In this document: piece by piece, positions 11,190 to 33,300 of the stretch | Numbering within the stretch: position 1 is the first letter of the stretch | How the letters are laid out: each line of letters opens with the position of its first letter | Notes under the pieces: generated by a model | What the model was told of the DNA's origin: nothing | The model's input: the letters and a program-made list of their open reading frames with translations, nothing else | Databases searched by the model: none | IMG/VR virus record: IMGVR_UViG_3300008110_000190 | Location: 1 to 35,197 of that record | Strand: one strand, 5' to 3' | Length of the DNA stretch: 35,197 bases | Source of the DNA: a virus | Translations under genes and position numbers: made by a program

Positions 11190-11206
11190 TTATTAAAAAA
11201 AACTAT

Positions 11207-12160
11207 GTGAATTTTAACTTTATACAAAACATAGATGTCCCATTCGACGCAATTACCTTGCCTAGTATGGGACTTTTTTATTCTTCAAAAACCTCGGTGT
11301 TGTATGTAAAATATATAACCGCAAGGGAAGAGAATGTATTGACCCAACCTTCCTTAATGGAAAATGGATATGGTTTAGATTTAGTTTTAAATTCTGTAAT
11401 TATAAATAAGGAATTTGATATAAATGATTTATTGGTTGGTGACAAACAATCAATTTTACTATATTTAAGATCTACATCTTATGGTGATAATTTTCCGATA
11501 ATTACAGAATGTCCAAGTTGCAAAATTACTGGTGAAACTAAATTTGAATTATCAAGTTTAGGAGCAAAGGAAATAACAGAAAAGCCCGATGAAGATGGTT
11601 TATTTACTTTTGAAATGCCTAAAATGAAATTAAATGGCGAAAAAGTAATAATCAAATTTGAACCTTTGAGAGTAAAACATGAAAAAAGCATAAATGTCTC
11701 GATAGAAAAAGAGAAAAAAGATAATAAAAAATATAATTCAAGTGTTACCTTAAAATTTCAAAATCAAATACACAGTATAAATGGAATTACTGATAAGATA
11801 TATATATCGAAAATTATAAAGAAATTTCCTATTAGAGATTCAACTGATTTGAGAGAGTATATGGAAATGGTTGAGCCGGGAATTGATAGTAATATACCAA
11901 TAAAATGCAATAATTGTAACGAAGAGTATTCTACTTATTTATACATAAATGATACAATTTTTACACTTGATCCTTCTTATAAATCAAACTTGTGGGAGGA
12001 AGTTTTTTTAATTTGGTACTATGGGAAAGGTGTAAATAGAGAAGATATTTACAACATGTCTACGGTTGAGAGAAGGTGGTCATTACAAAGAATTTCAGAA
12101 GAAATTGAAAAAAGAAATCAAGCAGAACAATCTGCAGCTGACAAAGCTAGAAGAAGTTAA
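11207..12160 (+). CDS. T4 gp26-like baseplate hub protein, copy 2 (paralogue)
   Basis: This 317-residue protein shares the signature blocks of its upstream neighbour: LPSMGLFYSSKTSVLYVKYI, ITAREENVLTQPSLMENG, LLVGDKQSILLYLRSTSYGD, LREYMEMVEPGI. Its two CxxC pairs are Cys102/105 and Cys234/237. It lacks the N-terminal arm of copy 1 and adds a C-terminal extension of about 65 residues (SNLWEEVFLIWYYGKG, STVERRWSLQRISEEIEKRN) that ends in a charged helix and may contact another hub part. The start is GTG at 11207; an ATG two bases earlier is in another frame and stops at once. Function is the same as for the family, with partner unknown. Confidence 0.83.
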   Translation: MNFNFIQNIDVPFDAITLPSMGLFYSSKTSVLYVKYITAREENVLTQPSLMENGYGLDLVLNSVIINKEFDINDLLVGDKQSILLYLRSTSYGDNFPIITECPSCKITGETKFELSSLGAKEITEKPDEDGLFTFEMPKMKLNGEKVIIKFEPLRVKHEKSINVSIEKEKKDNKKYNSSVTLKFQNQIHSINGITDKIYISKIIKKFPIRDSTDLREYMEMVEPGIDSNIPIKCNNCNEEYSTYLYINDTIFTLDPSYKSNLWEEVFLIWYYGKGVNREDIYNMSTVERRWSLQRISEEIEKRNQAEQSAADKARRS

Positions 12161-14740: not shown

Positions 14741-17700
14741 ATGGACGCTAATCAAGTCAAACAATTAATTAAAGAATTAAAAGCTGCTGGTACATTAACA
14801 GAAGAACAAGCAAAGCTTTTGAGAAGTCTTGAACGTGAGCAAAGAAAAGTTCAAAAAAGTACAAGAGACACTCAAGCTTCCATGGAGGATTTCAACAGAG
14901 GTTTGGATGAAGTTGGAGAAGCCTTTGGTCTGCGTTTAAGTCAGGCATTTGATACAATTGAAGTAGAAGTCGAGCAAGCGAAAAGAGATATTGCTACGAT
15001 GTTTGATGATCTTGAAGCTACAGCTCCAGAAATTGCTGCTAGTATTGGCGAAGAATTCAATTCAGCTTTTAGAAATGCTTTACCAGATCCGAAAGATATA
15101 CAAGCTCAAATAAATTTAAATTCATTAATAAGTGATTTTAAAGCATCATTCCCAGAAATGGGTAATGAAATGCAAAAAGCTTTCAAGACTGGAGATATTG
15201 CAACTTTCTATAAGAAATTTGGAGACGAAGGGATGAAGAGGCTCCGTGATTTTCTAGGAGATAAAAAAGGATTTCAGGGAATGAAAGATTATTTCAAACC
15301 CGGAGGAGATGGAGATAAAGGAACAAATAGATTTAGGCAACAATTAGAATCCTTTGAACCGGCAGCACAAAAAACAACTAAAGTTATAATGAATTGGAAC
15401 AATTTGTTCAGACAAATTGGTGACAATATTTTAAATTATATTGGGTTTGGTAAGATAATTCAAAATCTTATGGATTTTGATAAAAAATTATCTAATATAA
15501 AAAGAGAGTTCCAGATTCCAACTGCTGGTTTTTCTAAAGCATCAAGTTCAATGTCTGAACTTGTAAAGTATGGGGCCCAATTCGGTTTAGACAATGAAAA
15601 AGCTTTTACATTAGTAAAAAATATTGGTGAATACGCTAAATCAACAAACGTTCAAAATTTAGCTGCTACTGCAAAACAAGTTGCTGCAGTGTCAGACGCA
15701 ACTGGTATAGCATTAGAAAATGTCGGTCAATTGACTGGTCAAATGATGTTTTATGGGGCTAATGCTGAAAAAGCAAGAAAAGCTTTTGTAGATATTTCTA
15801 AAGCATCAACAAGGTTTGGAGTTAATGTAACGGCTGTAGCTAAAAAATTCCAAGATGTTTTTCCAAGATTTGCTAGAATGGGATTCAAAGCTGGTGAAGA
15901 ATCACTTGCTAGAATGGCAGCAAAAGCCGAAAAAATGGGCACTGATATTAATAAATTATTAGATGCTTCAGATAAATTTTTAGATATCAATGCAGCTCTT
16001 GAAGCATCAGCTGATTTGAGTTTGCTTGGTGGTGCTGCAGCACAGGTTTCATTTATGGATTTAATGAAAGCTGCTCAAGATGGTCCAGAAGCTATGGATA
16101 AGCTTATGACCCAAATGACTTCCGATATTGGAAAGTTAAATAAGGATGGTAAGTTGCAACTGTCTATGATCGATAGACAGAAAATTCAAAAAATTGCTGA
16201 AGCATCAGGAGAAGATGTAGAATCTGTAACAAATAGAATAAATTCAAGATTATCAGATGCTGCGAAAAAAGCGGCAATTCCACCCGGTGTGTTTAATGCA
16301 TTGAGTGATGACGAAAAAGATTTTTTACTTTCTAAAGCTGTGAAACAAGGTGGCAAGTGGAAATTTGAAGGGTTGGAGGGAATGCAAGATCTAAAAAATG
16401 TTTCTAAGGGAAGTATTCAAGCAATGATGAATAAATCAAAATCAGATGCTGAAAATATGGAGAAAGCTGCGAAGAGCAGACAAGCCTTAGAAGAAAAATT
16501 AAATAATTTAGCTAACGAGGTATTAGCCACATTCACAATGTTTCAACCTTATTTAGAAATGTTGAAACATGCCCTTGATAAATTGAGAGCAATTTTCGTT
16601 AGAGTGGGCAATGTTATTGATAAAGTATTTGGAGCTGAAACTGGTAAATGGGTTAAAGCAATGGCTTTGTTAGGTGGTATCCTTATGTTAACGTTTGGGC
16701 CTTCAGCAATGGCAAAATTTGCAGGTATTTTATTTAGAGGAATTACTTCACCTCTAAAAATGTTGTCTGGTTTAGGATCACAAATAAAATCTGCCTTTGC
16801 TGGTGTTGGTGGTGGTGCAAGTAAAAAAGCTACAGAAACATTAGCAAGTAAGGTAACTACACAAACCCCAGACATCGGCGGAAAAATGAAAGGAATGAAA
16901 ACGCCTCCAACAATGTTGCAACAGTTTTCAAAAATAAATCCTGCTCAAATTTTATCTTTAGCTGCAGCTTTTGTTGCCTTGGGAATCGCAATGCTATTAA
17001 TTGGGAAAGGAATTCAATTTGCTGCAACAGGTTTCGCAACTTTAGTTAATTCATTCAATAATGCTAAAAATGCAGGAGCAGCATTAGGTGCAATTGCAAT
17101 AGTTATGGGTGGTTTTGTTGCTATGGTTTATATTCTTGCTACTGCAAGTTCTATTGCTGCAATACCGTTGTTAGCTCTAGGTGCTGCTATGTTAATGCTT
17201 GGAGCTTCAGTTTATTTAGCAGCAAAAGGATTTTCTATATTGGTTCCAGCTATTATATCTATGGGTAAAAATATAGGAGCCACTTTTAAAGGTGCAGCTG
17301 GGTTAATTGCTTTAGCAGCAGCTTTAGTTATAATTTCTCCTGCATTATTAATTTTTGGAGCTGCAGGTTTAATTGCTGCTCCGGCAATGATTGCATTTGG
17401 ATATTTTCTACGTGGATTAGGTGCAGCAAAAGGTGTGAATCCAAAAATTATTTCTCAGATAGGAGATTCAATGGGCTCTATTGCTTGGGGACTTACTAAA
17501 CTTGGTTTGGTAGCTGGTCCTGCTGCACTGGCAATGGTTTCAGCTGGTGCTTTGATGGTTGTTGCCGTAGCATTAAAAAATATTTCTGCTGTTGATGTGA
17601 AAAAAGTAAGTCAATTTGGTCAAAGTCTTGCTTTAATATCAATGTCAATGATAAAAGGGTTAGTTAAATTGGCTTTGGTTTCACCATTTGCAGTATTAGC

Positions 17701-20700
17701 TATGGCTTCTGCTGTAAGTATAAATATAATTTCACAAGCATTATCAAGAATTAAAATAATTGATCTCGCAAAAATGCAAAACTTTGGTGACAGTATGGGC
17801 AAGGTTGGTTCTGCTATGATCAAAGGGTTGATAAAATTAGGCTTAGTAAGTCCTTTCACTGTTCTAGCAATTGTTTCAGCTGGAGCAATTAATTTAATAA
17901 GTAGAATGTTAGCAGATGTAAAAATTGTTGACCTTAAAAAAATGCAAGCATTTGGTCAATCATTGGCAGCAGTTTCTGCATCTTTTATTTTTGGACTTAT
18001 AAAGTTAGGTTTGGTTAGTCCATTTGTTGTTTTAGGCGTTGTATCAGCAGCTGGAATAAATTTAATTTCTAGATTATTAAATAATGTACCAGTATTAAAC
18101 CCAAAAAACTTGGGAATGACAGCTTCAACGATGGCTTCTACTTCCGGTAAGTTTGCAAAAGCAATGTTAAAATTAGGATTAGTTTCAGTTCTTACTCCTT
18201 TAGCGTTACTAGCAACATTGGGAATTTTAGGTGTAACAAAAATGTTAAAAGCTGTGCCTACACTTAATGCAAAAACATTAACTACAACTGCAGGAACAGT
18301 TTCTAAAGTTGTTTGGCCATTTACAAAAGCATTTTTAAAATTACAACCATTAGCAGCATTTACTCCATTAGCTTTAGTAGCTGCTGCGGGTATTTTAGGA
18401 GTAACAAAAATGTTGAAGGCAGTTCCAATGTTGAATCCTGCATTTTTGATAGTCACATCTTCAGTATTATCAAAAATTGCTTGGCCTTTTACAAAAAGCT
18501 TAATCAAGCTCGGAGCACTTTCCGTTTTTACTCCATTTGCAATATTAGCAGCGTTTGGAATATTGACAGTAACTAAAACACTTGCTAAAGTCACACCTTT
18601 AAATGCTGCAATTTTAATAACAACCGCTTCAATACTAAATACCGTATCTGGTAAATTTGGAAAAAGTTTATTTAAATTAGGGTTATTAGGAGTGTTTGCA
18701 ATACCTGCAATTTATGCTGCTAGATCTTTGGTTAGTATAACTAGTTCTTTATCTAAAATTACTCCATTGAACATGGCAATTTTGATAAATACAGCTAATG
18801 CTTTGAGTTTATCTTCTTCTGCATTTTCAAAAGGATTAAAAAAATTAGGATTCATTGGTTTCTTAGCAATACCCGCTATGATTGCAGCTAAATCTATTTC
18901 AATAATAACTAAATTTCTTGCTAATGTTACTCCTCTAGATCCAGTAAAGTTGGTGATGACTGGAGTTGCAATTTCTCTTTCGGCTCAAGCATTTTCGAAA
19001 GGTATGAAAAAATTAGGATTTATAGGATTTTTTGCTGTACCAGCATTGATAGCTGCTAAATCTATTTTATTAATTACAAATATTTTATCTAGAGTCCCAG
19101 TATTAAATCCCGGAATTTTAATTACAAACGCTATAACTCTTTCTATAATTTCTACACCATTATCAATGGGACTCAAAAAAATAGCATTATTAAGTCCCGT
19201 TGCTGCATTATCATCAATATCTTCAATTTTTATTCTAAAAACTGTTAGACTATTAAATCAAATACCACTTTTGAGTCCAGTAAAATTATTGACAACTGCG
19301 TTAACGTTATCAGCAATGTCTACTCCCTTGGCCAAAGGTTTATTCAAAATATCTTTACTGACATCAGTAGCAATGTTAGCCTCAATGTCATCATTGTTTA
19401 TTTTAAAAGCTACTAAATATCTTGCAGGAATTCCAATGTTGAATCCAATAAAATTAATTACTACTGCAGTTACTTTGGCTACGATGTCTGGACCTCTGTC
19501 TAATGGATTAAAGAAAATTGGATTAACAGCACCATTTGCAAAACTTGCATCCAACGCTGCTCTTAATATTTTTAAAACAGCAACATTTTTGAGAGGTGTA
19601 CCATTTTTATCCCCAACAAGATTTTTGACTCTTGCATATATTTTATCAAATACTTCCGAACCAATTGCTAAAGGTCTATCTAAATTAAGTAATGCAGCAT
19701 CTGTTGCAAATAAAGCTGCACAAGCAGCTTCCGGTCTAAGAAGAGTAACATTTATATTATTAATGACACTTCCGATAAATGCGGGAAAATTATTGAACAT
19801 AGCTAGTGTGATGACTTCGACCATGGGACCAATATCAAAAGGTCTACTAAAATTATCAGCAGCTGGATTTCTTGCAAATAGAGCTGTAAAAGCTGCTAAT
19901 AGTTTATTGAAAATCACAAAAACACTATCAAATTTACCTGTAGTAAGTCAAAGTGCATTAAAACAATTAGCAACAACTTTAAGTAGTACTGCTTGGAAAT
20001 TGACTAAAGGTTTAGGGAAATTTGCTGGTATTACAACTGTAATTGGTCCTGCAGTAGTTGTTGCCAAAGGTATCAACAGTATTTCCAGAAATTTATCATC
20101 TATGCCTGCGATAAACGCTTCGAGTTTGATAAATTTAGCCTCTACTTTATCTAAAACTTCTGGAAAACTTTTTTGGGGTTTAACAAAGTTTGCAGCTTCA
20201 TCAGTTCCAATTTTACCAGCAATTGCAGTAGCCGAAGGAGTTAAATTTATTACAAAGCAACTTTCTCAGGTTGTTCCAATAGATACAAAAAAATTAAGCA
20301 ACATAGCATTTTCATTAGCATTTATTTCTCCAGTTTTGACTGCGGGTTTTAAAACATTTGCTAAAATGGGTTCTAGTGTCATCGGTGCTATTTTTGCAGC
20401 AAAAGGCATAGTATCAGTAACAAATAGTTTAAAAAATGCCCTACATATTAATTCTAAAAAATTAATCAATATAGGTGATACTTTATATTATGCTTCTCCT
20501 AATTTGAGCAGAGGGTTCATAACTTTCAGTAGAGCTGGTTATTATGCTGGACTTGCAATTGTTGCTGCAAAGTCTTTGGTATTTATTACAAGATTATTAA
20601 GAGGAACAGTTCCTCTTAATTTTGCTAAAATGTTCAATATAGGCTTTGTATTAGCAACAACATCTTCTTCAATTGTAGTTGGAATTAAAAAACTCAGCTC

Positions 20701-22258
20701 CGGTATGCCATTTGTAATACCTGCTATATCAGCTGCAAGAGGTTTAGTTCCAATAAGTAAATTTTTAAGTCAAGTTGTTTTTGTTCCATTAAAAAATATG
20801 CAGCAATTGGGAACAGTTTTAAATAATACCTCCGGTGCTATAGTAAAAGGTCTAGTTAAATTTTTAGGAATAAGAGCACTTGTTAGTCCAGCGATTACAT
20901 CTGCAAACAGATTAGTTCAACTTAGTAAGATTATAAATCAAATTCAACCTATTGTTGCAAAAAATCTAAATAAATTAGCTAGTGTTACAAGTTCTACAAG
21001 TTGGAAATTAGGTAAAGCACTATTTAAATTTGCAGGAATTAGAGCAGTTACAACACCAGCAATATCTGCTGCTAGAGGTTTAGTAACTCTTACACAAGTA
21101 ATAAATCAAATACAGACAATTTTTAATAAAAATTTATTACAATTGTCAACAGTTCTAGGTTTTAGAAGTATTCCTTTGTTAAAAGCAATAGTCAAATTTT
21201 CATCAATTACACCTTTTGTTGCACCCGCAATTTTGACTGCAAAAGGCCTTGTAAGTTTAACAAAAAATATAAATCAAATACAAACAATATTTTTCAAAAA
21301 TTTATTAAGTTTAGGTACAGTTCTTACTGCAACATCTGGTAGATTGATAAAAGGTTTGATCAAATTTTCTGCAGTTGCATTTTTTACAGGTCCGGCAATT
21401 GTAAGTGCTATAGGGGTTAGAAAATTAAGCAGAATTTTATTAGGTATAGTTACTCTATCTCCTGTACCATTGATTACACTTGCTAGTCTATTAAGTGCTA
21501 CAGCGAGTACTATGATTTCTGGATTGGTTAGATGGTCTATGATGATACCATTTATTATTCCAGCAATTTTCTCAGTTCTCGGAGTCACAAGAATATTCAG
21601 ATCGTTAGCATCAATAGCTAATTTAAAAATTGATGGTATTTTAGCTCAAGTTCCTATAATTAATTCTTTAATTGCACCAATTATGAGGTTTTCTATGATA
21701 GGAATAGTAGCACCTCAATTAATTGCTGCAGGATTTGCATTAATGATTTTAGGAAAGAGTTTAAAATCAGCTACAAGTGGATTTACATCTTTTTCATTAG
21801 TTCCTTGGCCTTTATTCGCAAGTGCCCTTCCAACTATTAGTGGATTAACATCTACGTTAATATCATTTGGAACCAGAGGTTTGACTGCTTCTTCAGGTAT
21901 AATTTCAATGGCATCTAGCTTGAATGTATTAGGAAGATCTCTAAATAATGTTTCTTCAAGCTTTGGAATTTCAACCAAATCTATGGCTGATTACAACAAA
22001 GAAAAAGATAGACTAAAAACTGTAGCTACTGCTCCAAAACCGGGGGGTAATAATGAAATAAGTTTAATACAGAGAGCAAAAGCAGCTGCAGCCTTAGGAA
22101 CAGATTTAACAACCACAAGAAGAGAGGGTGCAGTAGCAGGAGGTAGAGAGACTGCTGGAACACAAGTTGTTCAGATAAAACCTATACAAATAGACTTGAA
22201 ATTGAACGGAAGACAGTTGCAGCAGATAATTGTCGAGGCTAATTATAATAGAACTTAA
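14741..22258 (+). CDS. Tail tape-measure protein with 24 perfect-length 56-residue repeats
   Basis: At 2505 residues this is by position, length and composition the tape measure, which sets tail length and is ejected with the DNA. Residues 1-~150 are helical and charged (LKAAGTLTEEQAKLLRSLER). Residues ~250-640 resemble a tape-measure core (SMSELVKYGAQFGLDNEKAF, TAKQVAAVSDATGIALENVG, KKFQDVFPRFARMGF). From ~635 to ~900 there are several strongly hydrophobic segments. Residues 952-2295 are 24 consecutive 56-residue units, preceded by one 52-residue unit. The last ~100 residues are soluble. At about 0.15 nm per residue, the rule known for tape measures, the tail would be about 375 nm, long for a contractile tail. 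Terminators and the candidate promoter pair lie just upstream, and the giant 22-residue-repeat gene follows after 57 bases. Confidence 0.92.
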   Translation: MDANQVKQLIKELKAAGTLTEEQAKLLRSLEREQRKVQKSTRDTQASMEDFNRGLDEVGEAFGLRLSQAFDTIEVEVEQAKRDIATMFDDLEATAPEIAASIGEEFNSAFRNALPDPKDIQAQINLNSLISDFKASFPEMGNEMQKAFKTGDIATFYKKFGDEGMKRLRDFLGDKKGFQGMKDYFKPGGDGDKGTNRFRQQLESFEPAAQKTTKVIMNWNNLFRQIGDNILNYIGFGKIIQNLMDFDKKLSNIKREFQIPTAGFSKASSSMSELVKYGAQFGLDNEKAFTLVKNIGEYAKSTNVQNLAATAKQVAAVSDATGIALENVGQLTGQMMFYGANAEKARKAFVDISKASTRFGVNVTAVAKKFQDVFPRFARMGFKAGEESLARMAAKAEKMGTDINKLLDASDKFLDINAALEASADLSLLGGAAAQVSFMDLMKAAQDGPEAMDKLMTQMTSDIGKLNKDGKLQLSMIDRQKIQKIAEASGEDVESVTNRINSRLSDAAKKAAIPPGVFNALSDDEKDFLLSKAVKQGGKWKFEGLEGMQDLKNVSKGSIQAMMNKSKSDAENMEKAAKSRQALEEKLNNLANEVLATFTMFQPYLEMLKHALDKLRAIFVRVGNVIDKVFGAETGKWVKAMALLGGILMLTFGPSAMAKFAGILFRGITSPLKMLSGLGSQIKSAFAGVGGGASKKATETLASKVTTQTPDIGGKMKGMKTPPTMLQQFSKINPAQILSLAAAFVALGIAMLLIGKGIQFAATGFATLVNSFNNAKNAGAALGAIAIVMGGFVAMVYILATASSIAAIPLLALGAAMLMLGASVYLAAKGFSILVPAIISMGKNIGATFKGAAGLIALAAALVIISPALLIFGAAGLIAAPAMIAFGYFLRGLGAAKGVNPKIISQIGDSMGSIAWGLTKLGLVAGPAALAMVSAGALMVVAVALKNISAVDVKKVSQFGQSLALISMSMIKGLVKLALVSPFAVLAMASAVSINIISQALSRIKIIDLAKMQNFGDSMGKVGSAMIKGLIKLGLVSPFTVLAIVSAGAINLISRMLADVKIVDLKKMQAFGQSLAAVSASFIFGLIKLGLVSPFVVLGVVSAAGINLISRLLNNVPVLNPKNLGMTASTMASTSGKFAKAMLKLGLVSVLTPLALLATLGILGVTKMLKAVPTLNAKTLTTTAGTVSKVVWPFTKAFLKLQPLAAFTPLALVAAAGILGVTKMLKAVPMLNPAFLIVTSSVLSKIAWPFTKSLIKLGALSVFTPFAILAAFGILTVTKTLAKVTPLNAAILITTASILNTVSGKFGKSLFKLGLLGVFAIPAIYAARSLVSITSSLSKITPLNMAILINTANALSLSSSAFSKGLKKLGFIGFLAIPAMIAAKSISIITKFLANVTPLDPVKLVMTGVAISLSAQAFSKGMKKLGFIGFFAVPALIAAKSILLITNILSRVPVLNPGILITNAITLSIISTPLSMGLKKIALLSPVAALSSISSIFILKTVRLLNQIPLLSPVKLLTTALTLSAMSTPLAKGLFKISLLTSVAMLASMSSLFILKATKYLAGIPMLNPIKLITTAVTLATMSGPLSNGLKKIGLTAPFAKLASNAALNIFKTATFLRGVPFLSPTRFLTLAYILSNTSEPIAKGLSKLSNAASVANKAAQAASGLRRVTFILLMTLPINAGKLLNIASVMTSTMGPISKGLLKLSAAGFLANRAVKAANSLLKITKTLSNLPVVSQSALKQLATTLSSTAWKLTKGLGKFAGITTVIGPAVVVAKGINSISRNLSSMPAINASSLINLASTLSKTSGKLFWGLTKFAASSVPILPAIAVAEGVKFITKQLSQVVPIDTKKLSNIAFSLAFISPVLTAGFKTFAKMGSSVIGAIFAAKGIVSVTNSLKNALHINSKKLINIGDTLYYASPNLSRGFITFSRAGYYAGLAIVAAKSLVFITRLLRGTVPLNFAKMFNIGFVLATTSSSIVVGIKKLSSGMPFVIPAISAARGLVPISKFLSQVVFVPLKNMQQLGTVLNNTSGAIVKGLVKFLGIRALVSPAITSANRLVQLSKIINQIQPIVAKNLNKLASVTSSTSWKLGKALFKFAGIRAVTTPAISAARGLVTLTQVINQIQTIFNKNLLQLSTVLGFRSIPLLKAIVKFSSITPFVAPAILTAKGLVSLTKNINQIQTIFFKNLLSLGTVLTATSGRLIKGLIKFSAVAFFTGPAIVSAIGVRKLSRILLGIVTLSPVPLITLASLLSATASTMISGLVRWSMMIPFIIPAIFSVLGVTRIFRSLASIANLKIDGILAQVPIINSLIAPIMRFSMIGIVAPQLIAAGFALMILGKSLKSATSGFTSFSLVPWPLFASALPTISGLTSTLISFGTRGLTASSGIISMASSLNVLGRSLNNVSSSFGISTKSMADYNKEKDRLKTVATAPKPGGNNEISLIQRAKAAAALGTDLTTTRREGAVAGGRETAGTQVVQIKPIQIDLKLNGRQLQQIIVEANYNRT
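17594..21625 (+). repeat. 24 x 168-bp coding repeat (56-residue units) in the tape measure
   Basis: Laying the protein out in lines of 56 residues from Asp952 keeps every unit in register to Leu2295 with no gap. Each unit runs: a start such as N/D-P-x-K-L, a polar helix (TTASTLSxxS), a KGLxKLG-like core, a hydrophobic stretch with a Pro (FxxPAIxAA), and an xxITKxLxxVPxL end. Units are diverged in DNA and protein; closest pairs are neighbours (units with INQIQTI ends near 20.9-21.3 kb; GILGVTKMLKAVP near 18.2-18.4 kb), as expected from local duplication. Confidence 0.95.
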
Positions 22259-22315: not shown

Positions 22316-25300
22316 ATGATTGAGAATTTTCCTTTTGAGTCTGAAGAAGAATATAGACAAAGGGTCAAATTTGAGGAGTTTTTTGGTAATTATACAGATT
22401 CAGTAAGGCAAATACTGATAAGTAAAAATGTACCTAATCCCAAGAATTTATACGACGCTTACAAGATAAGAAAGGATAATCTTGCAAGAAATCAAACTAT
22501 TTCGGCCAATTTAGATGAAAATTCTCAATATTTAAGGTCTGTTTTACTATCAAAAAATGTTGATAATATAATTGATCCAGATAAAATTTCTAAAGAAATT
22601 AGAGAAACCCTTATTTCAAAAAATATATTATTAAATACTGATAAAGATCTAGAAGAATTATCTGAAAAGACCAGATTATCACTTTTAGCTAAAAATGAAT
22701 CTCAGCTTTATGGTAAATTAGATAGAACCGGAGCAGCTGCAAGAAGGAATTTGCTACCAAAAAATGAAATTGTCAATCCAGATAGCATAGAAAGATATGC
22801 TAATGTTACAAGATTTAATTTATTAAGTAGAAATTTGACTGATATTGCTGATGTTGAAAAGGCGGCAGAAAATTATCGAAATGCTCTGTTAAATAAAAAT
22901 AATTACGAAGGAACTAATCAGATATTAGATTCTAGTTCAGAAGTTCAAAGAAATAATTTATTAGCAAAAAATAGTAATTTCAACTCTTTTGATATTGATA
23001 AGTCATCCGAAGAAATTAGAAGTAGTCTGCTTTCAAAAAATCAAATTATTGATAATGTAAAAAATAATGATTTCTCAGTAGTAAGGCAATTTCTTCTAGC
23101 AAAAAATAATTTTGAAGAAATAAATCTTGATCTTCTTGCTTCAGAAATAAGAAATAATACTCTAAATAAAAATTATTATGATGAAAGTATAGATAATAGT
23201 AATGATTATAATAATTACAGACTTTCATTACTTAGTAAAAATGAAAATAAAGTTACAGATTTAGATGAACTATCTAAAGAAAATAGAGATTATCAGCTTA
23301 AATTCAATCAAATTTCAAAAAACGTTTCGAATGAATTAGCCGATCAGGAAGAGATAAGAAAAAATTTATTAGCAAAAAATCAAACCAACCCTAAGGATCT
23401 AGATCAGGAATCAGAAACCTTAAGAAATAAATTAATTTCCAAGAATTTATCTAATTTAATAAACATTGATTTGTTATCTATAAATCAAAGATCAAATTTA
23501 TTAAAGAGAAATGACTATACAGAAGCAAATGGTGAATTAGATAATATTTCTGCAATAATAAGAAATAGCACTCTGGCTAAAAATGAAAATTCCGAACGAA
23601 ACATTTTAGAAGAAACTGCTATTAAAGAAAGACTCAGAATTTTGAGTAAAAATCTTAAGAATGTTTTTGATATAGAAGGATTGGCTAGTGAAATTAGGAA
23701 CAATCTTCTTTCAAAAAACACTTTTGAGGGAGGTGTAAACAACTTACTTGACGAATCTTCAATAATTCAAAGATTAAACTTATTAGCTAAAAACGAAAAT
23801 TTAAATAGAGAGGATTTAGAATTAATTGCTAATAGAATTAGAACTACTCTTGTAGCAAAAAATCAAGTTATAGATTCTGCAGATAAAAATTTTGATAATA
23901 CAAGAAAATCATTATTAGCAAGAAATCAAAATGATTTAATTGACCTTGATAGTATCGCTAAAGATTTTAGAAATGCGTCGTTAAATAAAAACCAAATTGA
24001 TGCATTTTCTATAGATGAAGTATCTGAAAAGATAAGGACATCTCTAATAAATAAAAATAATATAAAATTATTTGATTTAGATAAACTTGCTGAAAATAAT
24101 AGGAATGCTCTTCTTAGTAAAAATGAAATTATTTCGGATAATGATGTTAATAGTGATCTAATAAGATCAAGTTTATTAAGTAAAAATCAAACTAAAACTG
24201 TTGATCTTGATGAAGAAGCCATATCTAGTAGAAATAGGCTTATTTCAAAAAATGTAAGTAATTTAATTGGAATAGATGATTTATCAATAAATCAAAGATT
24301 TAATTTATTGAGTAAGAATCAAAATAAAGAAATTGATTTAGATAAATTAGGAGAAATACAAAGAAATAATATTTTAAAATATAATCAATTTGTAGATATT
24401 GTATCTAATTTTGAAGAGGTTGAAATATTAAGAAAAAATTTACTTGCAAGAAATCAAAATCAATTAATAGATCTTGATGAACAAGCAAAAATCCAGAGAT
24501 TAAATCTTTTAAATACAAATCAGAATTTAAATTCTATAAATTTAGAAAGTGAAGTAGAAAACTATAGAAAAGAATTACTAGCCAAAAATCAATCAGTATA
24601 TAAAGATATTGATGAGGAAGCAATACCTCTTAGAAATAGTCTAATTGCTAAAAACGTAAGTAATTTAATTAACATAGATATTTTATCTATAAATCAGAGA
24701 TCTAATTTATTAAGTAAAAATTATTATACTGAAGCAAACGGTGAATTAGATGAATTATCCAGTAAAATAAGATTGCCATTACTCTCTAAAAATCAGAATT
24801 TCGGAGATATTAGTCTCGATGAAGTTGCATCACCAGAAAGAATAAGACTTATCACTAGAAATCTTAAAAAATTAATTGATTTAGATTTAGCAGCTATTCC
24901 TTATCGTGAACAATTATTGGGTAAAAATAATTATGACGATACTTTTAATAGAATTCTTGAGGAAATTGCTTTAAATCCGAGAAAAAATCTTTTAGCTAAA
25001 AATAAAGAAGATTTTTCGGAAGAACTGGAAACAATTGCTAGAATAACCAGAACTAATCTTCTAACTAAAAATTATGATATCAATAAAATAATTGATACTA
25101 CATTAGACACTAATGCTTTAGAGATTAGAAGAAATTTATTAGCTAAGAACGATGTAGTAGAAGCTAATTTAGATTTAATTTCATTAAAAGCAAGAACCAA
25201 TTCTCTTTCAAAAAACATATCATATGCAAGTTTAGATCTAGACCTTTATGCTTCACAATTCAGAGAAGAATTAAAAAGTAAAAATGTACCTTCTTTAAAT

Positions 25301-28300
25301 GATTTAGATAAACTTGCAAATTTATATAGACAAAACCTTTTAAAATCTAATGATCCCGGATATACATCTGTGGGTACGGATGAATTGATAGAGATTACAA
25401 GAACTAATCTATTAAGTAAAAACAAAGGTAAAATAATAGATATTGAATTTGAAGCACTGACTGTCAGAAATAGATTAATTTCTAAAAACATCGATGCTTT
25501 AATTGATATTGAAAAAATATCAAATGTTCAAAGAGAAAACCTTATCAGTAAAAACAAATATACTGAAGCAAATGGTTTACTTGATGAACAAGCTGGTGTC
25601 ATTAGAAATTCTCTTCTTAATAAAAATGTAGAAGAACTATTCAATCTAGATGCCTTAGCATTAGATATTAGAAGAAATTTAGTTAGTAAAAATCAAATAA
25701 CATATTTTGATTTAGATGCTGAAGCAAAAGATATTAGAAATAAATTACTTGCATCTAATTCTGATACCCCTATAGATTTGGATAAGTTAGGATTACAAAT
25801 CAGAACTTTAACATTAAGTAAAAACGAAAGTAAAAGTATCGATCTTGATAAAATTTCAGCTCAAGAAAGAGATGATTTATTATCAAAAAATGTTGAAACA
25901 AGAATAAATTTAGATTTAATTTCTGAACAATACAGAAAATTGCTTTTAAGTAGTAATGTATTTAAATTATTTGATTTAGATGCAGAGGCTACAGAAATCA
26001 GAAATAGATTAATATCAAAAAATTTAGATAAACTTTTTGATCTGGATGAGCTGGCAACTATTAATAGAACATCTTTATTGAAGTTCAATGAAATTTTACC
26101 AGTCGACCTAGAAAAGGATACAAATAAATTAAGAAATAAATTATTAGCTTTTAATAAAGCTCAATTTATAGATTTAGATACTTTGGCTATACGTCAAAGA
26201 GAAGATCTAATTCAAAAAAATCAAATAAAAGAATTTGATTTAGATGCTTTAGCTCTATCGATAAGAAACACATTACTTACAAGAAATGTTTATGAAATAA
26301 TAAACCTAGATAATTTAGCTTCTCAAGAAAGAAGTATACTTTTATCAAAGAACGAAACTAAAGTAATAGATCTAGATAGACTTGCAAATGAAATTAGAAA
26401 TAATCTAGTTACTAAAAATGTTTATGGTTTAATTGATTTAGATATTTTAGCTAGTTCGGAAAGAAAGAATTTATTAAGTAAAAACGAAATTACATTATTT
26501 GATCTTGATGCTAATGCAGAACCTTTAAGAAATAGTTTATTATCATTCAACCAAAATCAATTTATTGATCTTGATACGATTGCTTTACCTATTAGAACTA
26601 ATACGTTAGCTAAAAATGATACTAAGCAAATTGATTTAGATGCTACTGCAACTGTTCAAAGAAATAACATTTTAAGTAAAAACATAGCATCTAGCATAAA
26701 TCTAGACGCAGAAGCGGAAATTTTAAGAAAATTATTAACTGAAAAAAATCAACCTCAATTTCCTGATTTAGACAAAGAAGCTGCACCTTACAGAAAAGAT
26801 TTATTAGCGAAAAATGCAGAAATTGCTATCATAAATTTAGATGCAATAGCTGCTGCAAATCGTTCAGATATTTTACAGAAAAATGTTGAAAATATTATTG
26901 ATATCGAGAGATTAGCAACACAATCTCGAACAACATTATTAAGTTTCAATCAACCGCAATTTATTGATTTAGATCAGATCTCTGTCGAGCCAAGACAAAA
27001 TGCACTCAATAGCAATAAAAATATTAAGATAATAAATCTTGATGCAATTGCTGCTGAAAACAGAGATGATATTTTAGCTAAAAATAAAACAATAAGAGTT
27101 CAAGATCTTGATCAGGTTGCGGTGCCATTAAGAGCAAATTTATTAGCATTCAATATTCCGGTTTTTGGAAGTTTGGATGCAGTTGCAGAGCCAATAAGAA
27201 CATCGTTATTAAATGCTAATGTAGAAAGATTATTTGACCTTGATCAAATAGCAGCCGGAAACAGAAGTGATCAACTCTCTAAAAATTTAGAAACAACCAT
27301 TGATTTAGATAGCTTAGCTACATCAATAAGATATGGTCTTTTAGCAAATAATACGTCTGATTTGCTAATTGATTTAGATTCTCAAGCACAACAAGAAAGA
27401 TTATTATTATTAGCTAAAAATGTATCAAATTTATTAGTTGATTTAGATGCAGAAGCACAAGGTTTAAGAACTAATTTATTAGCATTTAATCAACCACAAT
27501 TTGTTGATTTAGATGCCGAAGCTATTAGTCAAAGAAATAATTTACTTTCAAAAAATCAACCATCAACTATTGATTTAGATACTAATGCTATAAGTTCAAG
27601 AAATAATTTATTAGCATTTAATCAACCACAGTTTATTGATCTAGATAGTGTAGCAACACCCATAAGAACTAATATGCTTTCCAGCAATGTTCCAAGTATA
27701 ATTGATTTGGATTCATTAGCTGCAGTCGAGAGATTAGATTTATTATCATTCAATATACCAACATTAATAGATCTTGATCAAGTTGCTCAATCTGAAAGAC
27801 AAAATTTATTAGCATTTAATGTTGCTCAATTTATTGACCTTGATACAGTAGCTGCTCCTCAAAGAGCAAATTTATTAGCAAACAATCAAGCTACAATAAT
27901 TGATATAGAAGGAATCGCTGATCAAGAAAGAAATAATTTATTAGCAAGTAATCAACCTCAATTTGTAAATCTTGATGAAGAAGCTGAACCATACAGATTA
28001 AGTTTACTAGCAAAAAATAATCCGGATCCGGATGGAAGTCCCTTGGGCACAAATGTGTTTATTGGAGGGACCAGCGTTTTCTTAGGAGTATCAAATCTTG
28101 ATATTAACGGAGCAATAATTAGAGCACTTAATAAGCTAAAGAATCAATTTATAGCAACATTAGATAGCCCTGATACTGATTTTCCACATTGGAATTTGTT
28201 AGGTCCTGCATTTAATCAAAATTTAAGAGGTAACGGAGATTGGGTTTTCTTTGCTCAGCAAAGACAACTTGAAATGAATGTTATGGGTCTTCAGGGAAGA

Positions 28301-29989
28301 AGATGGGGTGATATTGGGAATGCATTTTATGTACTGAATGGTCTTTCGCCTACACCATATATACCTAATTATTTTGCCAATATGGTTAAAGGGAGAAAAG
28401 AGGCAACAAACTCTGTTCCCATAGAAGTAATAGTAGCAAATAATGGATTGTATCTTTCCAATTCTCCTGAATTAATTCTTAAACCTTTGATTGGTTTAGC
28501 AGGAACACCTGCAGATGAATTAGGTACAGATATTTCAATGATGGCACAAACACTTCCAACACAACAATTGGAAGTGGATTTTAGAAAAAGAAAAAGAGGT
28601 GTTCACAACATAATAAACACTATTAGAAATGGAGAAAACTCATTATTAAATCAAAACTATTTATCTCAATCAAACAAAGAATTCATTATTGGTTATGATA
28701 ATTTTGGTGCTCCACTAAGAGCAAAACAAAGATACACTATAGTAAATCCTTATACTGGGCCTGCGTCTACTAAAAATTTAATTTTCTCAATTGAAAACTT
28801 GGCTATACCGGATACCGCTAATGATAGAGTTATGTATTTCCCGCCATACATAGAAAAGTTTTCACATAACTCAAAAGCAACTTGGACAGAACATACATTC
28901 CTTGGAAGACCTGAGTCATTATATACCTATTCAAAGGGTGACAGATCTGGTACAATTTCTTTTGTTGTTCTCACAGATTATGCTCAAACTGTAGACATGG
29001 GAGTTGACTGGGAAAATTTCAGAACATATGTAGAAACATTTGATAAAAACTTTACTGATACTATGGTTTTTGATGAACCAGTAAGCGGATTGGGAACTCA
29101 AGATCAAGTAGATGCTGAACTTGCAGCCACAAAACAACAATTAATTAATATTGATGAACAAATTAATGTTGTTACTGCAGAAATTAATCAAACAAATCAA
29201 GTAAATCAAGATATTAGTGATTTACAACAGAAAAAAAATGATTTAATTAAACAACAATTATCTCTACAACAAAAAATAGATGATTTAGATAAATCTTTTA
29301 GACCAACTACTAATCCATATTCAGAACAAAGAAAAGGTTTTGATAACGTATATAAAAACTTATTAGACACAGCTAGAGTTCCTGATGGACAATACGGTGA
29401 TGTAGTGAGTATTCTTTCAGATACAACTCAAAGATTGGCTGGAATGAAAAAAGATTTATTATTTCAACCAGCATTCTTTTCGGGATCAAAAGTTGATTTC
29501 AGAAACAGAATGAAATTTTTAGAAAAATTGACTAAACCTTCCAAATCATCATCAGAAAAAACAGGATTTAATTTCACTAATCCCCCAGTATGTAAAATGA
29601 GATTAGGAGATTGGGTTGATCACTATGTGATTTTTGATAGTGTAGATTATGATTATAAAGAAAATAGTTGGACGTTAGATGGTTTTGGAGAAGAAAATGG
29701 TTTGGTAACTGATGGTGTGCAACCTTTAATGGTTTCAGTAACTCTCAGCTTTAAATTGCTTGGTAAATATGGTGCGAGTATCAATCCAAGCTTGGCACCT
29801 CCATTGGCAAGTGATGAAACTGGATTCTTTGGAATATTAAATGATACACCTGATCAAGATATAGCAACTGGTGAGGTTAAAAAAGCAGATTCTGACGTAA
29901 CTCCAAATGCACCAACTACTAACAATATACTAATAACACAAAACCTAGATCAAGCAGCAAATCCTCTACTAACTGAAAATGTTGCATAA
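22316..29989 (+). CDS. Giant 22-residue-repeat protein with C-terminal baseplate/tube-like domain
   Basis: This 2557-residue protein (ATG at 22316; an in-frame TTG at 22313 is possible) has a 38-residue head, then about 83 repeat units (residues 39-1901) of consensus xxxxIDLDxxAxxxRxxLLSKN. The Arg and the final Asn are almost invariant. The C-terminal ~650 residues are globular: WNLLGPAFNQNLRGNGDWVF, LQGRRWGDIGNAFYVLNG, FPPYIEKFSHNSKATWTEHT, PESLYTYSKGDRSGTISFVV, a coiled coil at ~2266-2329 and VCKMRLGDWVDHYVIFDSVD. The TYSKGDRSGTISF and PPVCKMRLGDW patterns recall phage tube-cap/baseplate proteins, but I cannot name a family. Neighbours (tape measure upstream, gp53-like downstream) place it in the tail. 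The repeats may form a long helical rod or solenoid, such as a fibre, collar or second ruler. Low-complexity DNA is in frame throughout, so the protein is real. Confidence 0.85.
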   Translation: MIENFPFESEEEYRQRVKFEEFFGNYTDSVRQILISKNVPNPKNLYDAYKIRKDNLARNQTISANLDENSQYLRSVLLSKNVDNIIDPDKISKEIRETLISKNILLNTDKDLEELSEKTRLSLLAKNESQLYGKLDRTGAAARRNLLPKNEIVNPDSIERYANVTRFNLLSRNLTDIADVEKAAENYRNALLNKNNYEGTNQILDSSSEVQRNNLLAKNSNFNSFDIDKSSEEIRSSLLSKNQIIDNVKNNDFSVVRQFLLAKNNFEEINLDLLASEIRNNTLNKNYYDESIDNSNDYNNYRLSLLSKNENKVTDLDELSKENRDYQLKFNQISKNVSNELADQEEIRKNLLAKNQTNPKDLDQESETLRNKLISKNLSNLINIDLLSINQRSNLLKRNDYTEANGELDNISAIIRNSTLAKNENSERNILEETAIKERLRILSKNLKNVFDIEGLASEIRNNLLSKNTFEGGVNNLLDESSIIQRLNLLAKNENLNREDLELIANRIRTTLVAKNQVIDSADKNFDNTRKSLLARNQNDLIDLDSIAKDFRNASLNKNQIDAFSIDEVSEKIRTSLINKNNIKLFDLDKLAENNRNALLSKNEIISDNDVNSDLIRSSLLSKNQTKTVDLDEEAISSRNRLISKNVSNLIGIDDLSINQRFNLLSKNQNKEIDLDKLGEIQRNNILKYNQFVDIVSNFEEVEILRKNLLARNQNQLIDLDEQAKIQRLNLLNTNQNLNSINLESEVENYRKELLAKNQSVYKDIDEEAIPLRNSLIAKNVSNLINIDILSINQRSNLLSKNYYTEANGELDELSSKIRLPLLSKNQNFGDISLDEVASPERIRLITRNLKKLIDLDLAAIPYREQLLGKNNYDDTFNRILEEIALNPRKNLLAKNKEDFSEELETIARITRTNLLTKNYDINKIIDTTLDTNALEIRRNLLAKNDVVEANLDLISLKARTNSLSKNISYASLDLDLYASQFREELKSKNVPSLNDLDKLANLYRQNLLKSNDPGYTSVGTDELIEITRTNLLSKNKGKIIDIEFEALTVRNRLISKNIDALIDIEKISNVQRENLISKNKYTEANGLLDEQAGVIRNSLLNKNVEELFNLDALALDIRRNLVSKNQITYFDLDAEAKDIRNKLLASNSDTPIDLDKLGLQIRTLTLSKNESKSIDLDKISAQERDDLLSKNVETRINLDLISEQYRKLLLSSNVFKLFDLDAEATEIRNRLISKNLDKLFDLDELATINRTSLLKFNEILPVDLEKDTNKLRNKLLAFNKAQFIDLDTLAIRQREDLIQKNQIKEFDLDALALSIRNTLLTRNVYEIINLDNLASQERSILLSKNETKVIDLDRLANEIRNNLVTKNVYGLIDLDILASSERKNLLSKNEITLFDLDANAEPLRNSLLSFNQNQFIDLDTIALPIRTNTLAKNDTKQIDLDATATVQRNNILSKNIASSINLDAEAEILRKLLTEKNQPQFPDLDKEAAPYRKDLLAKNAEIAIINLDAIAAANRSDILQKNVENIIDIERLATQSRTTLLSFNQPQFIDLDQISVEPRQNALNSNKNIKIINLDAIAAENRDDILAKNKTIRVQDLDQVAVPLRANLLAFNIPVFGSLDAVAEPIRTSLLNANVERLFDLDQIAAGNRSDQLSKNLETTIDLDSLATSIRYGLLANNTSDLLIDLDSQAQQERLLLLAKNVSNLLVDLDAEAQGLRTNLLAFNQPQFVDLDAEAISQRNNLLSKNQPSTIDLDTNAISSRNNLLAFNQPQFIDLDSVATPIRTNMLSSNVPSIIDLDSLAAVERLDLLSFNIPTLIDLDQVAQSERQNLLAFNVAQFIDLDTVAAPQRANLLANNQATIIDIEGIADQERNNLLASNQPQFVNLDEEAEPYRLSLLAKNNPDPDGSPLGTNVFIGGTSVFLGVSNLDINGAIIRALNKLKNQFIATLDSPDTDFPHWNLLGPAFNQNLRGNGDWVFFAQQRQLEMNVMGLQGRRWGDIGNAFYVLNGLSPTPYIPNYFANMVKGRKEATNSVPIEVIVANNGLYLSNSPELILKPLIGLAGTPADELGTDISMMAQTLPTQQLEVDFRKRKRGVHNIINTIRNGENSLLNQNYLSQSNKEFIIGYDNFGAPLRAKQRYTIVNPYTGPASTKNLIFSIENLAIPDTANDRVMYFPPYIEKFSHNSKATWTEHTFLGRPESLYTYSKGDRSGTISFVVLTDYAQTVDMGVDWENFRTYVETFDKNFTDTMVFDEPVSGLGTQDQVDAELAATKQQLINIDEQINVVTAEINQTNQVNQDISDLQQKKNDLIKQQLSLQQKIDDLDKSFRPTTNPYSEQRKGFDNVYKNLLDTARVPDGQYGDVVSILSDTTQRLAGMKKDLLFQPAFFSGSKVDFRNRMKFLEKLTKPSKSSSEKTGFNFTNPPVCKMRLGDWVDHYVIFDSVDYDYKENSWTLDGFGEENGLVTDGVQPLMVSVTLSFKLLGKYGASINPSLAPPLASDETGFFGILNDTPDQDIATGEVKKADSDVTPNAPTTNNILITQNLDQAANPLLTENVA
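22430..28018 (+). repeat. About 83 tandem coding repeats of ~66 bp (22-residue units)
   Basis: Splitting after each conserved [K/R/S/F/A/N]-N gives about 83 units of 19 to 27 residues, modal length 22. Units 1-44 vary in length; units 45-83 are almost all 22 or 23 residues. Consensus is x4-I-D-L-D-x2-A-x3-R-x2-L-L-S/A-K/F-N. Near-identical DNA between late units (for example around 27477-27520 and 27608-27650) points to recent duplication at the 3' side. Confidence 0.95.
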
Positions 29990-30025: not shown

Positions 30026-30328
30026 ATGGCTTTCTCAAGATACTCACAACTTGCATTTAACGGAGAAATGAAATCTTTTCCTAAAATATTAATTAGTAAA
30101 AGAACAACTGATATATATGTAACTTATAATTCAAATAAGACTAGATTAGATAGGATAGCATCAGAAGCGTATGGTGATGATACTCTTTATTGGATTATAT
30201 TATTAGCTAATCCAAATTATTATATGGAGTTTGATATTCCGAATGGTGCAGTAATAAGAGTTCCAAATCCATTAAGTGAAGTAATCACAGAATTCAATAA
30301 TAAAGTATTAGCAAATAGAAATTCATAA
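30026..30328 (+). CDS. gp53/LysM-like baseplate protein
   Basis: This 100-residue protein has the pattern of the LysM-like small baseplate proteins related to T4 gp53: TRLDRIASEAYGDDTLYWII, then LLANPNYYMEFDIPNGAVIR, then VPNP. The pattern is a LysM motif (helix, YGD-x4-W, Asn, then G-x3-RVPNP). In T4, gp53 helps join wedges around the hub; a tail-tube or tail-X role is an alternative for such short LysM proteins. One base separates it from the hub-hydrolase gene, so the two are co-translated and probably interact. The leader is A-rich (TTAGAAAAATGG). Confidence 0.82.
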   Translation: MAFSRYSQLAFNGEMKSFPKILISKRTTDIYVTYNSNKTRLDRIASEAYGDDTLYWIILLANPNYYMEFDIPNGAVIRVPNPLSEVITEFNNKVLANRNS

Positions 30329-30329
30329 T

Positions 30330-33300
30330 ATGCCTTTAGTAGTACCAGTTGATAGTGATATTAGACCTCAAGACCTTACTCTAGATTTTTATCTTGAAGC
30401 TACACCTATTGGCGGTGGTAAAAAAGATTTTTCAGGTAAAAACACTTATATAATTCAAGCATTTACTGAAAATTTAGGATTTGGAATCACTAGTTTAGAT
30501 ATAGATATAAAACCAAATTTACAACCAGTTGTAAATATTACATTTAAAGATTTATATGGTAACTTGGTTTATAGCAGAGATGAAAGATTCAAATTTGATA
30601 TTTTATTCCAATTACCATATCCAAAATTTAATTTATACATAAAAGGTTATGTTGGTAAACCAGTAAATTTTTTATTGCAAGTAAAATCTGTTAAGACTAC
30701 TTATCAATCTTCTGATGGTAGTTATGAAATAAAAGCCGAATTTATTCCTAATGTATTTGGGTTTTTTGGAGATATACCTTATCAATATCTTTTTGCAGTA
30801 GCAAAATTGAAAGATAAATTTGGAGAGAATACTGAAGGTTCTGAAGGAAATTCTTCTATCATAGAGATAGCAAAAAATGGAATTGAAATAAAACAAAAAA
30901 TACAGCAAGTAGAAGATAAATACAAATTACAAAGAGATACTTTGACTATTTTAGCTGGAGACCCAACTTCAATAGCAACTAGTTATAATCAGGGGACACT
31001 TAAATTTGATTCAATAAGTCCTGACGAGTCTTTGACTTCTGCTGGATTTACTGGTGTCACATTTAATATTAACACAAAAGATCCTAAGGGTAAAGATTAT
31101 ACAATAATTGACTCATCACTAGAAGTAATAGGTAATTCTATACTTGCAAGTATAAATTCTCCAACTACTATAGAGTTTAAATCAACCATACCATCATTAA
31201 GTGCTTTTACACAATCGGACAAAGGAAAAAAACAAATAGAAGATGCAAAAACAATTATAACTTCAAATTTAAATGCTATAACCAAAGCCTCAAGTGCTCA
31301 AGGTTACAGTAGTGTTGAAGATATTTTAATTGATACTCAAACGATCTATAATGTGATGACCAGACTCGCTGGTGATTGTGCTTATATACTGGGATATATT
31401 TTAGAGGGTGGAATTAGTGGCTATAACGCAGACACATCAAGACCTACAAACAACGAAATTTTTGGAAATTATTATCCTTTAATTGAAGAAAATAATTTAG
31501 GGCAAACTTCTGCATTTGGTGAGCAAAAACCTTGGTCACAGGCACCAATAGAATTGAAAAAAGTTGAAGATTTTTGTCAAGCTTTATATGAAGGTGTACA
31601 ACAAGCAGAAACAATAATTCAAGAAGCATCTGATCAAAATAATGCAATTACTGACCAACCTGCAATAGAAGGAGAAAAAATTGCAAAAAGATTAACGAAT
31701 GCTGAACACGTAAAAAATAATCCATATTTGGGACAAAGTGTTGATAAGATAATAACCAATCTAATACAAAGGGCAGGCTTAGCATCTTGCGGATACGCTT
31801 TCAATACATTAGCAGTAGCTCAAACAAACTTAACAGATGCTGAATATGAAAATTTTTCTGACGCAGTCCTTAAATTAAAAGGAACTGACAGAACAACTTT
31901 AAAAACATTTGCAGAGGAAGTAAAACAAATTTTTAATAGCAAAGGAGAACTTACAAAGGAATTTACAGATAAAACAAAAAATAATCCAAATTTAACTTAT
32001 CAAGATTATTTTGCTAGTTATTTTGAAAAAATGGATTTAGCATCCACAAATAAGGAAATATTTTTGAATTCAGATCCAAAAAGTTTAGTTTGTGTTTCCA
32101 TGTTTCAGAATGGAGTCATGTATCATAATCCAAAAGATGTATTAGCTAAATTGACTAGCAAAGCTGCAGGTGCAAACTCATGTTTAAATAAGGGTGGTAA
32201 AGCAGAAATTGTTGCATATATTAGAAATAAAAATGCACCTTTAGATGTGGATCAATTAAATGGAGATCCATCTTCTGATACACAAATGCCTCAGAAAGTA
32301 AAAAATCCGAATTTTCAATTTTTTAAAGTAGAATATAATCCACCAACTGAAGCAAAATACGGAGTATTTATCAATTATGCGGAAATGGTGAATGCTCCCA
32401 CGCCAACTTATAAATCATTGGATAGTTTAATTTTACCAGTAATAACTGGTCAAACCATTTCTGGATACGAACAAGCACAAAAAGAGGATTATTTAGTAAG
32501 GTTAGTTTCACAAACACAATTATCATCACCAGCAGATTATGTTACAAGTCTAAAAAATGAAACAGTTAGGAGCAATCTATGGTTTTATTGTAGTAAAATC
32601 TTGAACTTAACTTCCGGAACTGAAGAAGAACAAGAAAAAAGATTAAAAGATAAACAAGAGGCAGAAAATAAAGATGCTGTTTCGAGAGGTGAAACTCCTA
32701 CAGAAATTGTGACCGTCGGTGCCGTTGAGCCGTACTCACGAGATGATGGACAAATAAATGCAGTATATACACAGTTTCACCATATTTGTCAAGCTTGGAT
32801 TTCTTTAGCTACTACAGAAAATAGTGATGCATTACCAGATGGAACTGACGTTAATTTAAGGACAGTGTTGGAGAAAAAATACAGAAGTACTGATGGTACA
32901 TCTGCATTCTATTTAAATTTCAATTATCCACTTGTTATAGATAATCCGGCAGTGGATATAAGGGATGCTATTATTAATACAGATCCCTTATTGGAAAATA
33001 ACACTTCTACTTCTACGCTGAATATGATGCAAAACATATGTCAGTTAAATAACTTTTTATTACAACCTATACCAGCAGGTTTTACCAGTGATTTAAAAGA
33101 TTTATTTAAACCCCAGCCAAATATAGATTATAGCAATGCAGTAGGTAGAAATGCACTTTCAATTATTTGGGCACCAACACCTGAAAATAGATTGACCAAA
33201 AATGATAATAGTCCTATTTATCCAGATAAAAATTTTCTAAAAACTTTAGACAATTTAAAAACAGATATAATAGCCTTTCAATTTGGTAGTCCTAATAATG

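Follow-up and report, generated by a model that had tools for sequence, protein, structure and literature searches.

An array of 22-residue repeats beside the tape measure gene that may form a second tail-length tape in phages

Positions 1 to 35,197 of the IMG/VR virus record IMGVR_UViG_3300008110_000190 (35,197 nucleotides, hereafter the window) encode a giant protein (22316..29989, plus strand; 2557 residues from ATG 22316 or 2558 from TTG 22313) which carries 84 tandem units of about 22 residues and follows directly on a separate tape measure protein (TMP) of 2505 residues (14741..22258, plus strand). Comparison with related phages revealed that the number of units scales with TMP length at about 27 TMP residues per unit, a value which suggests one 22-residue unit per tail ring, and the array may hence be a second, previously unnoticed tail-length tape. 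The evidence throughout comes from sequence comparison and structure prediction, whereby the TMP was assigned by position, length and homology inside the group, and its length, serving as proxy, is inferred to stand for tail length here.

Unit number and tape measure length

Relatives of the array protein were sought by its C-terminal domain and by unit patterns, which revealed a 135-kb contig (G004) with a C-terminal domain 69% identical to that of the window and identified units of the same kind in G007 (388 kb, with G006 as a near-identical contig) and in G008 (83 kb), whose C-terminal regions share 37% and 35% identity, respectively, with that of the window. The G006 counterpart of the G007 array gene (G006:C1 124942-129025, L028) is nearly identical but broken, falling into two frames with one TGA reported, and the sequence does not distinguish a sequencing error from a real change. 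No array was found in the open reading frames examined at the pattern-scan loci L014, L015, L031 and L033-L035, and scans of the genome collection found no relative.

Units and TMP length amount to 84 and 2505 residues in the window, 99 and 2900 in G004, 31 and 1093 in G007 and 31 and 1077 in G008, the TMPs of the window and of G007 being homologous (BLASTP 4e-45). These four points, representing two clades, are described by TMP = 257 + 26.72 x units with residuals of 3.3, -2.6, 7.6 and -8.4 residues and leave-one-out errors of 5 to 17 residues. When 85 units are taken for the window's phage, as found in the sister contigs described below, the fit becomes 260 + 26.56 x units with residuals of -12.9, 10.3, 9.3 and -6.7 residues and leave-one-out errors of 13 to 27 residues. 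The array length therefore co-varies with TMP length as that of a tape measure would, with the TMP itself being the separate product of the gene directly upstream. The standard rise of an alpha-helix is 1.5 Å per residue, at which the slope corresponds to 39.8-40.1 Å per unit. Phage A-1(L), with a tail of 1045 Å and 689 or more TMP residues (PMC10966104), is consistent with this rise, and PMC8570332 gives a rise of 36-42.8 Å per ring for extended sheaths. Expressed in rings of 40 Å, the TMP exceeds the unit number by 9.9 (8.9 with 85 units) in the window, 9.8 in G004, 10.0 in G007 and 9.4 in G008, and upon trying rises from 36 to 42.8 Å this excess was most constant at 40 Å and 40.6 Å.

As compared to the window, the G004 array shows a net gain of 15 units (14 relative to the 85-unit sisters), mostly at G004 units 32-47, while its TMP possesses 32 copies of a hydrophobic 56-residue repeat as opposed to 25 in the window (17489..21688, plus strand; constant spacing of 56), again constantly spaced and without any indel. 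The seven additional copies are repeats 17 and 22-27 of 32, and the TMP difference of 395 residues equals 14.8 rings of 40 Å, in agreement with the added array length. As these insertions reside at non-corresponding places and add equal length, they point to selection on total length and not to one shared duplication. The run of 56-residue repeats is absent in clade B, i.e., the clade with much shorter TMPs, though the 22-residue units are kept. An obligate link between units and TMP repeats was rejected on this ground and because the insertions occurred at different places; counter to this rejection, G004 and the 85-unit sisters differ by 14 units per seven TMP repeats, which is an exact 2:1 ratio.

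Three further IMG/VR contigs (L001-L003; 222, 79 and 57 kb) carry a C-terminal domain and a TMP 100% identical to those of the window, while their array protein holds an extra unit of 23 residues after residue 1629 (at about 27200 of the window), yielding 85 units; otherwise two of them equal the window and the third differs by one residue. The recurrence of this protein in three other contigs shows that its array is no product of misassembly. The 84 units of the window reflect either a real copy loss or a collapsed repeat, between which the sequences do not distinguish, and G004 likewise has an unmatched unit (unit 87) at about the position of residue 1629.

In the uncultured phage LR756508.1 (484 kb), a TMP-like protein of 1602 residues is followed by one of 1579 residues whose first 900 residues consist of an acidic repeat of 16-17 residues, unrelated in sequence to the 22-residue units. 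This array forms a chain of 54 units, 52 of them scoring well, where the line expects 50.3, and its inclusion yields a five-point slope of 26.6-26.8 (r = 0.9997 with 52 units, 0.9987 with 54). The C-terminal domain of this protein is related to its counterparts in Flavobacterium phage immuto, Rhodothermus phage RM378 and Microcystis phage Mel-JY01 (E 7e-11 to 9e-13). A scan with the group thus formed found 253 relatives, 80 of which were analysed, and 16 of these 80 bear a third type of array made of mixed modules of about 20, 34 and 39-44 residues, among them the cultured Mel-JY01. For this 44-residue family, loci of equal length were represented by a single one and L114 was excluded due to its incomplete TMP, leaving nine distinct members. 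Across these, TMP length correlated with the array end (r = 0.87), with the count of 44-residue modules (r = 0.77) and with a regular-expression count of all modules (r = 0.94, slope about 20 residues per module). Predictions of TMP length from the total N-terminal extension, made beforehand, came within 50 residues for L107, L063 and L074, whereby the TMP lengths of L107 and L074 refer to the open frame and may overstate the protein by some residues. The 44-residue family is thus found to co-scale with the TMP but not at one module per ring.

Arrayless relatives served as control. From the 80 loci, the 16 with arrays and 19 others were removed, leaving 45. The latter 19 comprised L060, L061, L065, L084 and L104 (incomplete initiator), L090 (no TMP seen), L071 (upstream frame non-adjacent), L103 (RM378 itself) and, as duplicates of equal or near-equal length, L059, L069, L081, L082, L095, L096, L110, L124, L126, L129 and L131; the pairs L105/L106 and L086/L087, near-duplicates by length, are still among the 45. 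Within this set TMP length correlated with the N-terminal extension (r = 0.56) and not with the rest of the protein (r = -0.19), kinship being ignored in both values. The TMP measured at most 1066 residues in 45 of 45 kept arrayless loci and at least 1077 for all 14 proteins with an array for which a TMP length was available.

The repeat unit and its predicted shape

A position-specific score chain assigned the 84 units, and the earlier note's proposal of about 83 tandem 22-residue units of the form xxxxIDLDxxAxxxRxxLLSKN at 22430..28018 was confirmed: 83 of them fill this interval exactly, and one earlier unit, which ends at 22429 (Asn39), lies together with the N-terminal cap at 22316..22429. 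In 20 shuffles of the array protein the chain never exceeded one unit. Spacing is 22 residues in 54 of 83 steps (range 21-26) and more regular towards the C-terminus, where 34 of 42 steps equal 22 as compared to 20 of 41 in the N-terminal half. The near-invariant Arg and terminal Asn described earlier were likewise recovered over the four homologous arrays, with Arg at position 15 in 243 of 245 units and Asn at position 22 in 234 of 245, counts that are slightly biased upward because R...N matches had been used to build the score model; the next most constrained columns among these units are Leu18, Leu19, Leu7, Asp/Glu8, Ala/Ser11 and Lys21. Within the array, a DNA tandem-repeat search detected only 27438-27673, and the repetition is one at the protein level. 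A recent DNA-level expansion as sole cause was rejected, units within one protein averaging 34-37% identity. The unit profile gave chance-level matches only against Pfam, PHROG, NCBIfam and PDB sequences, with no profile match to known repeat or solenoid families, in line with the initial impression that no described repeat family was recognisable in the unit.

The shape of the array was modelled with AlphaFold2 for eight units as a monomer, based on an alignment of 24 eight-unit blocks. The model revealed eight helices of 15-16 residues with 6-7 residues in between (predicted local distance difference test, pLDDT, 72; predicted template modelling score, pTM, 0.17), the helix occupying unit positions 7-22 and being followed by a short linker. 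The expectation of one helix plus a short connecting segment per unit was hence borne out, while the stacked solenoid also envisaged was not supported: the helices are separate, and neither inter-unit packing nor a packed core was found in this eight-unit monomer model. By arithmetic, the contour length is about 44 Å per unit (16 x 1.5 Å + 6 x 3.4 Å). A compact stack is further disfavoured because the roughly 27 TMP residues per unit would stay unexplained. The long rod proposed in the earlier note, taken as projecting outward, did not gain support either; an array stretched along the tail appears more likely than a rod projecting from the baseplate.

The tail-tube junction, a proposed tape and its rivals

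The array protein is suggested to sit at the junction of baseplate and tail tube. Its gene lies between the TMP gene and a gp53-like wedge gene matching phrog_7145, an order shared by the window, G007, G008, LR756508 and Mel-JY01; immuto has the same order, but with a gene of 74 residues between the TMP and the array-protein homologue. In the T4 gene order, gp48 and gp54 follow gp29 (29-48-54). The C-terminal domain (28019..29989, plus strand) is homologous to phage proteins at the equivalent position, as the profiles of the window's C-terminal family and of the LR756508.1 group align over 79 columns in hhalign (P=4.9e-8, probability 94.8). The previously noted relation of the C-terminal part to tube or baseplate proteins thus holds in the form of a baseplate/tube-junction family, defined by synteny and profile. 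According to PMC3004832, the tube grows at this junction on a platform made of T4 gp48 and gp54, each present in six copies. Sheath matches (PF04984) were obtained in G001, G004, G007 and G008, surpassing the curated cut-off only in G001 and G004, and a tube gene (phrog_4542) was found in G001, at about G001:C1 215739-216230, and in G007; from sheath and tube genes together, the tails are probably contractile. As to the number of sheath genes, the window's phage possesses two sheath-like genes in tandem (G001:C1 208406-213459, L141; 786 and 879 residues) with nearly identical N-termini, G004 has two PF04984 matches, and G007 and G008 have one each.

Considering these data, it is regarded as fairly probable that the array spans the tail as a tape, contributing one unit to each ring and being anchored at the tube initiator. 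The suggested mechanism assumes that the C-terminal domain sits at the junction and that the N-terminal chain would be laid from there up the tail toward the head, so that each 22-residue unit, consisting of a 16-residue helix and a stretched linker of six residues, would cover one ring of 40 Å. Here, the conserved Arg and Asn would bind to the equivalent site of each successive ring, and the chain, presumably in six copies per tail, could keep successive rings in register during growth of the very long tail and act as a second length-matched component alongside the TMP. The chain is tentatively placed between tube and sheath, on the outer tube face, as a baseplate-anchored chain in the lumen would obstruct the DNA. 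It could act as a ruler or as a brace for very long tails, two functions which the length data cannot separate.

Several observations weigh against such a tape. The five-point line rests on about three independent lineages, and the window's 84 units and the 85 of its three sisters go with one and the same TMP of 2505 residues; unless due to an assembly error, this difference at constant TMP means that the match of units and TMP is good to about one unit only. In the 44-residue family, about 20-23 and not 26.7 TMP residues were obtained per module, along with a large intercept and with a subjective element in counting the modules; furthermore, the prediction for L070 missed by about 375 residues (1677 predicted, 1302 found). 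Post-array length, taken as control in this family, gave a Spearman coefficient of 0.71 against the TMP (Pearson 0.33), so that relatedness probably contributes to the correlation. The designation as tube initiator rests on synteny and the 79-column profile, as the AlphaFold2 model of the C-terminal domain from four sequences reached a pLDDT of 33 and the C-terminal profiles gave chance-level matches only against PDB sequences, matching no solved tube initiator.

Co-scaling with the TMP would fit equally well if the array were a further tape running within the tube lumen in a bundle with the TMP, drawing its period from contacts to TMP helices or to the inner wall. Helix-linker units could pack into such a bundle, and the exactly two units per 56-residue TMP repeat by which G004 exceeds the 85-unit sisters would find an explanation. 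A chain attached to a domain that is assigned to the baseplate could, however, presumably not exit the tube before the DNA, and clade B keeps its units without the 56-residue run, hence the units do not need the TMP repeats; a lumenal tape is therefore considered rather unlikely. The same ring count is predicted if the array decorates the sheath exterior, each sheath ring bearing one unit, and serves there to stabilise the sheath as a strap or forms a fibre on its surface. In keeping with this, the phages do possess sheath genes, including the two tandem paralogues of the window's phage. This placement is disfavoured because the chain would have to follow contraction, absorbing a shortening to 16.4-18.9 Å per ring (PMC8570332), and it is considered improbable. 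Little probability is likewise given to a rod or fibre that protrudes from the baseplate, with the match to the TMP being coincidence or a trend of long tails towards long repeats. It would accommodate the few independent points, the 44-residue family lying off the slope of one module per ring and the sister count shifting by a unit at constant TMP, and repetitive rods are common in phage fibres. Yet it leaves aside that the slope coincides with the ring rise, the residuals staying within half a ring, that the sequence-unrelated array of LR756508.1 falls near the line and that no fibre family was matched. A generalisation of the tail-spanning tape is put forward with reserve and regarded as somewhat doubtful: in contractile-tailed phages with TMPs above about 1,070 residues, the tube initiator might carry a tail-long N-terminal tape of about one module per ring as a general second ruler, arisen on three or more occasions from unrelated repeats (22 residues; 16-17 residues; mixed 20, 34 and 39-44 residues), with shorter non-repetitive extensions representing its miniature version.

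Neighbouring genes, known systems and significance

All genes of the baseplate block in the window, from 10311 onward, reside on the plus strand. Upstream of the TMP gene, two genes match phrog_150 (baseplate hub; 10311..12160). Downstream of the array gene, the gp53/LysM-like baseplate wedge protein (30026..30328; PF11246 E=1.6e-5, phrog_7145 E=5.5e-12) is followed by a putative baseplate hub protein with a C-terminal Amidase_2 domain (30330..35195), which runs off the window. Ahead of Amidase_2, at about residues 1327-1355, the latter shows weak endolysin-type matches and thus possibly combines two cell-wall enzymes in one protein. An HNH/homing endonuclease gene (phrog_559; 9790-10233) is inserted among the baseplate genes, and a DNA polymerase of 1136 residues (1865-5275; phrog_405, E=2e-247) is encoded near the tail block.

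Phage TMPs such as T4 gp29 and lambda gpH resemble the array in possessing repeats, in helical character and in a length proportional to the tail (here: to the TMP). Unlike these, the array is encoded by the next gene, is fused to a baseplate-junction domain, comes in addition to a full-length TMP and has polar units marked by Asn and Arg; the TMP repeats described in PMC3271669 are units of 11 residues with W/F markers. With the junction proteins T4 gp48/gp54 and the A-1(L) tube initiator gp18, the array protein shares the position after the TMP and before the gp53/LysM-like gene, the likeness to gp48/gp54 being one of position, while a related C-terminal domain recurs across phages. Its 2558 residues exceed the mostly 325-838 residues of arrayless relatives, the longer ones among these being L009 (1354 residues) and L090 (1191 residues, with a long extension and no visible array). 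In the rulers of muscle filaments of the nebulin type, a short module is assigned to each filament subunit and the repeat number matches filament length. The likeness to these is one of module-per-subunit design, polymer and kingdom being different. As judged from titles and abstracts, no precedent for such a tape was recognised in literature searches covering open-access PMC text.

The textbook example of a molecular ruler made of one protein is the control of tail length. If the array is such a tape, long tails would be measured or held in register twice, and the repeat number would be a readable, genome-encoded ring count, offering a natural test of the co-evolution of ruler and polymer. 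It would also account for a class of huge unannotated proteins encoded beside TMP genes, and with the cultured Microcystis phage Mel-JY01, whose array is of the 44-residue type, the idea of the tape would become accessible to testing.

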